Shown: one piece after another, positions 44,328-50,286 of the stretch
How the letters are laid out: each line of letters opens with the position of its first letter
Position numbering within the stretch: the first letter of the stretch is position 1
Assembly (NCBI GenBank): GCA_903642325.1
Contig: CAHJWM010000007.1
Coordinates: 1-64,000 of the forward strand
From: Myxococcales bacterium
Lineage (GTDB): Bacteria; Myxococcota_A; Polyangia; Polyangiales; Polyangiaceae
Direction: 5' to 3'
Length of the DNA stretch: 64,000 nucleotides
Made by a program: the position numbers and the translations under genes
The notes under the pieces: generated by a model
Told to the model about the DNA's origin: nothing
Databases searched by the model: none
The model's input: the letters and a program-made list of their open reading frames with translations, nothing else

Positions 44328-44413
44328 TGGTGGCCCCTCCCGGACTCGAACCGGGATTCCATTTCTGGAGAGGGATTTTAAGTCCCCTGCGTCTGCCATT
44401 CCGCCAAGGGGCC
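44328..44413 (-). tRNA. tRNA-Leu (UAA)
   Basis: An 86-nt cloverleaf on the minus strand. The acceptor GGCCCCT pairs with AGGGGCC, followed by discriminator A and encoded CCA (44328-44330). The anticodon loop CTTAAAA gives anticodon UAA. A long variable arm (TCCA-GAAA-TGGA) and the T arm CCGG-TTCGAGT-CCGG confirm a class II leucine tRNA. Confidence 0.95.
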
Positions 44414-46843: not shown

Positions 46844-46855
46844 GGCGGAGGATAG

Positions 46856-47137
46856 TCAATCGGGCGTGATGAGGGCTTGGTCCTCGCACAGCCAACCGCC
46901 TTGCTCGACGACGATGGATAGGGCTTCCCGCATCTCCGTGGCCGGGCAGCGTAGGGCGTACTCGAGCTCCCGGCCGTCGGGGCTCAGCGTTGCGTTGAGG
47001 ACCGCCAAGTCCTCGATCGCGCGCTGGACGAACCAGGCGCCATCGATCAGAAACCTTGCGCTCCAGATTTGGTCGCCGCTGCGGTTGTGCATCGCGATGA
47101 CGTCGACCCAGGCGTTCACCTTTTGTTCGTTCGTCAT
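46856..47137 (-). CDS. Small protein of unknown function
   Basis: 93 residues with a compact alpha/beta pattern: NAWVDVIAMHNRSGDQIWSA, FLIDGAWFVQRAIEDLAV and ELEYALRCPATEMREALSIV. No family was recognised. It converges on the hydroxylase gene with a 12-bp gap. No strong ribosome site precedes the ATG. Normal residue composition supports a real gene. Confidence 0.65.
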   Translation of the reverse strand: MTNEQKVNAWVDVIAMHNRSGDQIWSARFLIDGAWFVQRAIEDLAVLNATLSPDGRELEYALRCPATEMREALSIVVEQGGWLCEDQALITPD

Positions 47138-47253
47138 GACTGGAATGTAAACGCGTCACGGGCCGAGCGGTCAACTTTGGTCTTCCGAGCGCTCGCGGAT
47201 TCACCGCTAGATCGGAAGGGAGGGGCTCGGACGGCGCTACTTGCGGCGCCACG

Positions 47254-49443
47254 CTAGCGTCGATGCATCAGGTATCCGAACGCCACCGACAGGGAGCCCA
47301 CGATGATTATCAGCAGCAGCACGGTCGCCCAATGAGTGCTCTGCACGGGGCCCGGCCGCGCCGAGCGGCGCGACAGGCGCTCGGGTGGCAAGGAGATGCC
47401 ACCGCGCCCGCCGCGAGCCAGATTGGCGATTCCCGCGGCCGCAGAAGCGCTGATGCTGACGCGCAGTTGCAGGGCGCCGCGTTCGGCCTCGGTCAGGGCG
47501 ACGAGCTCCGCCTTTTGGACTCGGTCGCTGCCGTCCGCGAACACTGAAAGCGATTCGATCCAGGCGCGCACCGAAGGGGGTCGAAGATGAGGGTCGCGCT
47601 CCAAGCCGCGATGAACCGCGCGCGCTAAATCGCGCGGCACCCAGGAGGCGAGCTTTTCGAGCTGGGGGATTGGCTCGGTGCAGATGGCTACGATCAGCTC
47701 GCCCAGGGAGGTCTGTTCGCCCCACAGCCGTCGCCCGCTCAGCGCTTCCCAGAGCACCACGGACAAGCTCCAAACGTCGGTGCGCTCGTCGACGGCCCGA
47801 GCGTTTTTAGCTTGCTCCGGTGACATGTACATCGGCGAGCCCAAAAAACCACTCGCGCGCATGAGGCTCAGTTGACCGGTAGCGCCGTCGGCTTCGCTGA
47901 TGCCCGCGCGCTTGGCGACGCTGAAGTCGCGGACTTTGACGGTGACCTCCTGGGTATCCCCGTTCACCTGCAGCAAAAAATTGCCAGGTTTCAGGTTGCG
48001 ATGCACGAGGCCGCGGGCATTCCCGGTCGCCACCCCGCTCGCGCCCTGCAGCAGGAGTCGGACCGCGACCTGGGGATCGAGAGCGCCTTCTTTTTTCATG
48101 ACTGCCGACAGCTCGACCCCGCGCAGGAGCTCCATGACTAAGTACGGCATCCCGAGTGCATCGTCGACGCCCGCGTCGACGGTCCGCACAACGTTGGGGC
48201 TGTCGATGTCGTTGGCGGTGCGCGCTTCCCGTGCAAAACGCTGGAGGGCCGTCGGCGAAGCATTGCCCAAGCCGGCCGAGATGACCTTCGCCGCGAGCCG
48301 CGCGCCGTCCGTATCTTCGACCTCGTATACCGAGCCCCTGCTTCCGCGGCCAATCAAGCGCAGCACCTCGTAGCGTGCGCCGAGCCGCTTACCGAGGATC
48401 CCGAGCGGATCCGCATCGCTCGAGCCGCTCGGCGGCGGCGTCGGGATCGGCAGGGCCAGATCGGCTCGATCTTCCGAACGCGTTCGGAGCTCGCGCGACA
48501 CCCGAGCGATGCGCGGGCCGTCCAAAAATTCGCCACCGCCCGAAAACCGGCTCAGATCATCGGCGAAATCCCCGATCGTGGCGGGACGCAGATTCGGATC
48601 GCGATTCAACGCGCGATGAACGGCGCGCGCCAAACCCGCCTCCACCCAGGGCGCTCGATCTTGAAGATGAGGAACGTCGTCATTGCAGATGGCGATCCAC
48701 AGATCCGCCAACGACTCGATGTGTGAAAAGGGCGCCACCCCGCACAGCATCTGATAGAGCGTAGCGCCCAGGCCCCAGATGTCCGTGTGCGCGTCGGCGC
48801 TCTTCGCGTCGCGCAGCTGTTCGGGAGCTGCATAGTCCGGAGCACCGAGCTGGATGCCGGTCGACGTCAGCGGCTCGTCGCCCGGGGGGACGATGCGTTG
48901 GGCGATGGCGAAGTCGCAAACCTCGACAATGACCGCGTCGCCATCATGATAGAGCAGCAAGTTGCCCGGTTTGACGTTTCGATGAACCACGCCGATGCGA
49001 TGGGCAGCGGATAAGCCGCGGCCTGCCTGAAGGGCAATCCGGACCGCGCTTTCCGGCGTCAAAACGCCGTGTTCATCGAGCACGTCGTCCAGGTCTCGCC
49101 CCCTACGGAGCGGCATGACCAGGAAATGCGCACGGAGGGCCTCGTCCTGACCGGCGGTGAGCGTGCTCGCCACGTGCGGATCTGACAGCCCGCGAAGGAG
49201 CTTTGCCTCGCGTTCGAAGCGCGGCCAGGCTTCGCTGTCCAGCAACTCGGGATACAAGATTTTTACCGCGACGAGCTGGCCTTCCCGCTCGGTTGCGCGA
49301 TACGCGGCGCTCATTCTGCCCAGGCCGATCAGGGCGTCCAAGCGATAGCGGCCGGCAAGCAGCTCGCCGATGTAGCTCTTGGCGCGAGCTTCTGCGTTGG
49401 CCGGAACCACGATGGTTCGCGCAGCATAGCCATGCGGCGACAC
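47254..49443 (-). CDS. Protein with two tandem Ser/Thr kinase-like domains, both lacking the catalytic Asp
   Basis: 729 residues. Kinase-like domain 1 (about 33-300) has VAVK (Lys61), HRNVKPGN (154-161), CDFAIAQ and AAPEQ. Domain 2 (about 358-635) has a full Gly loop IGRGSRGSVY, LAAK (Lys386), HRNLKPGN (481-488), RDFSVAK and SPEQ. The catalytic-loop HRD is HRN in both (Asn156, Asn483; codon AAC both times). The nucleotide-binding Lys, Asn and metal Asp (177, 506) remain. A transmembrane helix (about 706-725, VLLLIIIVGSLSVAFGYLM) near the C-terminus puts both domains in the cytoplasm. HRN occurs in the pseudokinase HER3, so a signal-scaffold or ATP-sensing role is likely; weak activity cannot be excluded. 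Confidence 0.9.
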   Translation of the reverse strand: MSPHGYAARTIVVPANAEARAKSYIGELLAGRYRLDALIGLGRMSAAYRATEREGQLVAVKILYPELLDSEAWPRFEREAKLLRGLSDPHVASTLTAGQDEALRAHFLVMPLRRGRDLDDVLDEHGVLTPESAVRIALQAGRGLSAAHRIGVVHRNVKPGNLLLYHDGDAVIVEVCDFAIAQRIVPPGDEPLTSTGIQLGAPDYAAPEQLRDAKSADAHTDIWGLGATLYQMLCGVAPFSHIESLADLWIAICNDDVPHLQDRAPWVEAGLARAVHRALNRDPNLRPATIGDFADDLSRFSGGGEFLDGPRIARVSRELRTRSEDRADLALPIPTPPPSGSSDADPLGILGKRLGARYEVLRLIGRGSRGSVYEVEDTDGARLAAKVISAGLGNASPTALQRFAREARTANDIDSPNVVRTVDAGVDDALGMPYLVMELLRGVELSAVMKKEGALDPQVAVRLLLQGASGVATGNARGLVHRNLKPGNFLLQVNGDTQEVTVKVRDFSVAKRAGISEADGATGQLSLMRASGFLGSPMYMSPEQAKNARAVDERTDVWSLSVVLWEALSGRRLWGEQTSLGELIVAICTEPIPQLEKLASWVPRDLARAVHRGLERDPHLRPPSVRAWIESLSVFADGSDRVQKAELVALTEAERGALQLRVSISASAAAGIANLARGGRGGISLPPERLSRRSARPGPVQSTHWATVLLLIIIVGSLSVAFGYLMHRR

Positions 49444-49461
49444 TCTGCGCTAGTATCGAAT

Positions 49462-50286
49462 ATGTTCGAAGTGCAGGAACCCAAGGGCCGTGTGCTGGTG
49501 GTCGCAGGCTCCGACTCGGGCGGCGGGGCCGGCATACAGGCCGATATCAAGACCATCACGGTTTTGGGCGGCTACGCCGCCACCGCGATTACCGCGCTCA
49601 CTGCGCAAAACACCTTGGGGGTGTTTGGGATATTGCCCATCGACCCCGCGCTCGTCGCTCAGCAAATGTCCGTCGTGCTCACGGACATTGGAGCCGACGC
49701 GGTCAAGACGGGGATGTTGTACTCGGAGGAGATCATCGCGGCCGTCGCCTCGACGCTGGAGGCTCGCGCGCGCCGGCTGCCCGTGATCGTCGATCCCGTG
49801 ATGGTCGCCAAAGGCGGAGCTTCGCTCTTGCAGCAGCGGGCGCGCTTGGCGCTGGTCGAGCGCTTGCTGCCGCTCGCGGCATTGATCACACCCAACGCGC
49901 CGGAGGCTGCCGCCTTGTCCGGCGTGAGCGTGGAGAGCGAAGCGGATATGGAGCGCGCCGCCGATCGCTTGCTGGCATTTGGGGCCAGCGCGGTACTGAT
50001 CAAGGGCGGGCACCTGCCAGGGGACACGATCGTCGATTTGCTGCGCACGGCGGATGGCGAAGCGGCCCGCTTCGAGCATCCACGCATCGCGACTCTGTCG
50101 ACCCATGGCACTGGCTGCACCTTGGCATCGGCCGTCGCGTGCGGGGTGGCCCTCGGCTTCACGCTGCGCGACGCCGTGCAGCGCGCCGAAGACTACGTGC
50201 TAGAAGCGATCCGCACGGCCCCGGGTTTGGGCAAGGGCCACGGCCCGCTCAATCATGGGCATCCGATCGGCGCGCGCCTGAATTGA
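49462..50286 (+). CDS. thiD: Hydroxymethylpyrimidine/phosphomethylpyrimidine kinase
   Basis: 274 residues from ATG 49462. It phosphorylates HMP and HMP-P for thiamine synthesis in the cytoplasm. The N-terminal signature VAGSDSGGGAGIQADIKT, the substrate loop GVFGILPIDPALVAQQ, VIVDPVMVAKGG and the anion-hole/catalytic motif THGTGCTLASAVAC are all typical of ThiD. No other thiamine gene or visible THI-box riboswitch lies upstream. It is divergent from the double kinase-like gene, with only 18 bp between the two starts. Confidence 0.95.
   Translation: MFEVQEPKGRVLVVAGSDSGGGAGIQADIKTITVLGGYAATAITALTAQNTLGVFGILPIDPALVAQQMSVVLTDIGADAVKTGMLYSEEIIAAVASTLEARARRLPVIVDPVMVAKGGASLLQQRARLALVERLLPLAALITPNAPEAAALSGVSVESEADMERAADRLLAFGASAVLIKGGHLPGDTIVDLLRTADGEAARFEHPRIATLSTHGTGCTLASAVACGVALGFTLRDAVQRAEDYVLEAIRTAPGLGKGHGPLNHGHPIGARLN

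Follow-up and report, generated by a model that had tools for sequence, protein, structure and literature searches.

A tandem kinase-like membrane protein with asparagine at both catalytic aspartate positions, and its graded orthologues at the thiD locus of a myxobacterial genus

A tandem kinase-like protein encoded beside thiD in a Myxococcales bacterium has asparagine in place of the catalytic aspartate in both of its kinase domains, a combination found in no other genome among those compared. The stretch analysed – the window – is 64,000 nucleotides of contig CAHJWM010000007.1. We favour, at a probability of roughly 0.55, a history in which a tandem kinase with an external domain (ectodomain) gave rise to a tail-anchored, probably nucleotide-binding, non-catalytic pseudokinase serving as a scaffold or allosteric partner. 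On this reading the protein is an evolving receptor-turned-scaffold and not a long-conserved double pseudokinase. The motifs, the architecture, the orthology, the losses relative to orthologues, the preserved core, and purifying selection on the HRN domain of two same-genus relatives (G003 and G007) are directly supported.

Gene layout and catalytic motifs

The gene and its principal features are as follows.

47254..49443, minus strand: gene for the tandem (pseudo)kinase, 729 aa, starting at GTG
49432..50286, plus strand: thiD (phosphomethylpyrimidine kinase; Pfam), divergent neighbour, whose synteny marks the orthologous locus in relatives
48583..49347, minus strand: kinase domain 1, aa 33-287 (Pfam Pkinase, AF2 fold, best PDB matches PknB/PknA)
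49300..49326, minus strand: Gly loop of domain 1, GLGRMSAAY, with Ser for the third Gly
49261..49263, minus strand: domain 1 beta3 Lys K61, kept
48976..48978, minus strand: codon AAC for the Asn of the domain 1 catalytic loop (HRN), a site held by Asp in canonical kinases
48907..48915, minus strand: domain 1 DFA replacing DFG, Asp kept
47608..48366, minus strand: kinase domain 2, about aa 360-612 (Pfam match, AF2 model)
48325..48351, minus strand: Gly loop of domain 2, GRGSRGSVY, with the three Gly of GxGxxG retained (3/3) and GM of the family GGMG replaced by SR
48286..48288, minus strand: domain 2 beta3 Lys K386, kept
47995..47997, minus strand: codon AAC for the Asn of the domain 2 catalytic loop (HRN)
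47920..47928, minus strand: domain 2 DFS replacing DFG, Asp kept
47272..47340, minus strand: predicted C-terminal transmembrane helix, about aa 702-724 (hydropathy; AF2 helix 705-728, low confidence)

The reading frame is intact over its 729 codons, contains no ambiguous bases, and has a coding-like GC3 of 0.767 (0.75-0.87 in neighbouring genes); at its start it shares 12 nt with the opening codons annotated for the divergent thiD ORF. Each half of the protein matches Pfam PF00069 (Pkinase). The first-pass annotation had called it a membrane protein, and the predicted C-terminal helix does anchor it. There is no ectodomain, the protein stopping 9 residues past the predicted helix segment, and a search of the downstream DNA for a vestigial ectodomain beyond the stop gave no significant match. 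No partner gene adjoins the kinase gene. Beyond thiD lie TPR and EF-P genes, in an order conserved among relatives. Elsewhere in the window we noted a small ORF immediately downstream of the kinase gene (about 93 aa, MTNEQKVNAWVDVIAMHNRSGDQIW..., about 46855-47140, minus strand, read by eye) and a tRNA-Leu (taa) gene at 44328-44413 on the minus strand. The genome has 86 kinase-domain matches above the Pfam cut-off. The matches in PADLOC and NCBIfam (PD-T4-6, PknB_PASTA and others) are generic to kinases, and we draw no function from them.

The two catalytic loops, CATCGAAACGTCAAACCGGGCAAC (HRNVKPGN, 48961-48984, minus strand) and CATCGCAACCTGAAACCTGGCAAT (HRNLKPGN, 47980-48003, minus strand), are both in frame, confirming the AAC codons reported by the first-pass annotation. 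As it also stated, the ATP-binding Lys (K61, K386), the loop Asn (N161, N488) and the metal-binding Asp of DFG (D177, D506) are kept in both domains, and we find the alphaC Glu (E79, E406) and the catalytic-loop Lys (HRNxK) in both as well. It had not mentioned the DFA and DFS motifs, the Ser in the domain 1 Gly loop, the change of the domain 1 activation-segment GTP to GAP, or the loss from domain 2 of the family-invariant residues G368, M369, C505, T528 and G531. By the usual definition, which is a sequence definition (loss of the beta3 Lys, the HRD Asp or the DFG Asp), both domains are pseudokinases, and both retain the residues that holding a nucleotide would require. Nucleotide binding is therefore probable as far as sequence can indicate, and kinase activity is most likely lacking. 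The description 'conserved dual pseudokinase' stands for its second and third words; the first fails, as no other genome among those compared has Asn in both domains.

Taking as invariant those positions that do not vary in canonical tandem kinases, the window protein keeps 24 of 29 structural or family invariants in domain 1 and 35 of 44 in domain 2. The nine changed in domain 2 (compared with 2, 0 and 0 in orthologues) fall mostly in the Gly loop, the catalytic loop, DFG and the activation segment, and the overall match of this domain to a consensus of 281 positions is nonetheless similar, at 147 against 161-169 in the orthologues. This pattern looks like targeted catalytic loss on a preserved fold and not general erosion, although it could still be early decay.

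HRN is rare in the family. A DNA-pattern search of 108 family genomes gave 20 matches to HRNxKPxN and 12,720 to HRDxKPxN (about 0.16%); the window's genome has two HRN matches, both in this gene, and 48 HRD matches, and every other genome has at most one HRN match. Given this rarity, the occurrence of both matches in one gene is not chance. Gene conversion between the domains was considered as a source of the shared HRN and rejected: synonymous differences separate the DNA stretches round the motifs, so neither stretch is a recent copy of the other. ORFs of about 420 aa in six genomes of one genus (L141-L146; G110-G114 and G021) encode a single-domain kinase with HRN and DLG; this is a conserved HRN pseudokinase, and lies nearer to what the first-pass annotation predicted than the window gene does.

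Orthologues and history of the locus

A kinase gene divergent from thiD is also present in the same-genus genomes G003, G005, G006 and G007, and the five orthologues form one clade in the kinase tree (support 100/99). By position and sequence the window protein thus belongs to the locus's family of tandem receptor-like kinases, although it departs from that family in having nothing sizeable after the membrane helix. The locus is without this kinase in same-genus G001 and G002; the G004 contig ends there, and the short G006 contig covers only thiD and the next gene.

The residue following HR was expected to be Asn in both domains across relatives, with HRD in the closest homologues counting against conservation, and it is HRD that we find. 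The closest orthologue, thiD-linked G005 (L002; 57% identical), is HRD/HRD and DFG/DFG with an ectodomain, and the others are HRN/HRD or have HRD with domain 2 absent. G005 and a Polyangiaceae bacterium contig (JAQSWN010000021.1, L031) share with the window the thiD locus, two domains in the same order and a membrane helix, and differ in that each of their two domains has HRD and DFG and the protein carries some 80-90 residues of external domain. In G006, domain 1 (HRD, DFG) and the ectodomain are as in G005, and domain 2 is cleanly missing; at L010 1390-2898 (L154, G006:C30) the loss is precise, leaving the membrane helix and ectodomain fused to domain 1 in an open frame of 503 aa. G003 and G007 resemble the window in having HRN in domain 1 and in stopping at the C-terminal membrane helix, without an ectodomain, but their domain 2 is fully canonical (HRD), and their degenerate domain 1 Gly loop is more divergent while DFG is intact. 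Asn thus occurs in domain 1 of 3/5 orthologues (the window, G003 and G007), and a single locus in one genus presents graded states: both domains intact, the second deleted, the first dead, and both dead.

The kinase tree and AU tests (AU p 0.43-0.44) favour no one order of the three branches within the clade, and a neighbouring-gene tree gives weak support (88/92) to a grouping of the window with G005/G006. A single origin of the domain 1 HRN shared with G003/G007 is neither supported nor rejected by these analyses, and the Asn may reflect either common ancestry or parallel change. If the neighbouring-gene tree is right, the domain 1 HRN and the ectodomain loss arose twice; otherwise, perhaps once. 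Loss of the domain 2 catalytic Asp is private to the window's genome.

Branch length tracks catalytic state in per-domain trees. For domain 1 it is 0.20 in G005, 0.60 in the window and about 1.0 in G003/G007; for domain 2 it is 0.29 in G005, about 0.24 in G003/G007 and 0.42 in the window. The faster evolution of both window domains relative to active ones is also expected under relaxed constraint. Between G003 and G007, dN/dS is about 0.12 (0.11/0.89) in the HRN domain 1, as low as in the intact domain 2 (0.07/0.63, about 0.11), so that in this family an HRN domain is being preserved by selection. The window copy has no close relative among the genomes compared, and its pN/pS values relative to G005 are 0.30/0.58 and 0.23/0.60; pN is well below pS against every orthologue, part of this predating the catalytic losses.

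We also classified 32 complete or nearly complete tandem proteins by hydropathy and motif. Intact HRD-type domains with an ectodomain are the common state (20/32), and only in the window protein is the catalytic Asp changed in each of the two domains. All six proteins lacking an ectodomain (the window, G003, G007, G089c, G025b and G025c) have at least one degenerate domain, compared with 6/26 of those bearing one, four of these from one large-genome genus (g20). The Fisher p is 0.001 with kinship ignored; the tree shows only four ectodomain-state changes, too few for a phylogenetic pairs test to reach significance. Loss of the ectodomain and degeneration of a domain are thus associated, suggestively, over about four independent losses. 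A wider class search added almost no further full-length tandem relatives.

Two sets of tandem proteins show other arrangements. In one large-genome genus (L012 and L196-L198, from G026, G123, G122 and G124), domain 1 is degenerate (YRD, loop Asn to Arg, GFG), and an intact domain 2 and the ectodomain are kept, constituting a conserved bacterial pseudokinase-kinase tandem. Two tail-anchored paralogues of one genome (L125 and L128; G025:C303 and C454) are degenerate in domain 2 instead of domain 1 (HEN; HGG/GWG).

Structure and comparison with known systems

The AF2 model (nine sequences) contains two complete kinase folds (mean pLDDT 75, pTM 0.48), with activation loops of low confidence and an interdomain pose without confidence. 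The fold is that of Hanks-type (PknB-like) Ser/Thr kinases. Among solved structures, PknB and PknA come closest in both sequence and fold, although PknB, PknA and StkP have one active kinase domain and no HRN. Fold matches include a solved CaMKII D136N structure with Mg/ADP, D136 being the HRD Asp.

Comparison with HER3, suggested by the first-pass annotation, is a fair one, since HER3 and JAK JH2 have Asn at the HRD Asp position and bind ATP with one cation (PMC4718504). The pattern associated with such binding (beta3 Lys, loop Asn and DFG Asp kept, HRD Asp to Asn) recurs in both window domains at the level of sequence, and the JAKs are tandem as well. Both belong, however, to the eukaryotic tyrosine-kinase lineage; HER3 is without the alphaC Glu, and JAKs retain one active domain. 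Among bacteria, the pseudokinase family ActPs2 also has Asn for the HRD Asp and commonly a C-terminal membrane region, so that HRN itself is not new there, but ActPs2 proteins are mainly actinobacterial, with Arg for the beta3 Lys, a mostly deleted DFG and large insertions (PMC12599244); the window protein has K61, K386, D177 and D506 at those sites. Plant tandem kinase-pseudokinase proteins likewise fuse two kinase domains with catalytic degeneration, but are of separate descent, have one putatively active domain, and no such membrane tail (PMC6170490). One active-looking and one degenerate domain, the arrangement of these proteins and of the JAKs, is not that of the window protein, and would describe G003/G007.

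Competing explanations and significance

In the history we favour, the ancestor would have been a tandem Ser/Thr receptor-like kinase with a pair of PknB-like domains in the cytoplasm, a single membrane helix and a domain outside the cell. The window's lineage would have lost the external domain, and both domains their catalytic Asp (HRD to HRN) and DFG Gly, with the ATP-binding Lys, alphaC Glu, loop Asn and metal-binding Asp retained throughout. Most likely both domains would still fold and probably bind nucleotide, without efficient phosphate transfer, and the protein, tethered to the membrane, would serve at least one of the cell's many active kinases as a scaffold or as an allosteric dimer partner.

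The main rival is decay in progress, in which the receptor became useless once its ectodomain was lost and the domains have been drifting, the matching Asn residues being coincidental G-to-A transitions. We consider this rather unlikely, even though the dual HRN is private to one genome, the window domains evolve faster than active ones, and the missing kinase in G001 and G002, together with the missing domain 2 in G006, marks the gene as dispensable in the genus. Simple decay is not favoured, as the first-pass annotation had also judged, for the frame is unbroken and its GC3 coding-like, both domains retain the Lys, Glu, Asn and Asp together with most of the structural invariants, and the invariants that did change cluster in the active site. 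The low pN relative to pS, though partly older than the losses, and the strong purifying selection on the HRN domain of G003/G007 also speak against it. It is improbable, to a greater degree, that the domains are not dead, and that with HRN in place one or both still transfer phosphate weakly or in an unusual way, or act as some other transferase. The ATP-binding Lys, Glu, loop Asn, DFG Asp and catalytic-loop Lys are all present, and HER3, with Asn at the equivalent site, trans-autophosphorylates in vitro (PMC4718504); yet each window domain has lost its catalytic Asp along with the DFG Gly and residues of the activation segment, which is unlike one tolerated substitution. A sequencing or assembly artefact is very improbable: the genome is a 140-contig assembly, but an error would have to account for four separate substitutions (two HRD and two DFG sites) in an intact frame with conserved gene order, and the domain 1 Asn was independently assembled in two other genomes.

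A broader reading, which we advance only as doubtful, extends the favoured history to the family: ectodomain and catalysis would be lost in a coupled manner, tail-anchored receptors repeatedly becoming membrane pseudokinase platforms, usually through one domain and here through both, that regulate other kinases.

Bacterial pseudokinases are common yet almost unstudied (PMC12599244); in M. xanthus pseudokinases make up 11 of the 99 Ser/Thr kinases by one count, and seven of the 11 are developmentally regulated (PMC6791715). With its graded states, the thiD locus is a natural setting in which to test what role a bacterial kinase domain has once it no longer phosphorylates, and whether the external domain and catalysis are lost in step. 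If the coupled reading is true, the window protein would be a fully non-catalytic double pseudokinase regulating kinases at the membrane.
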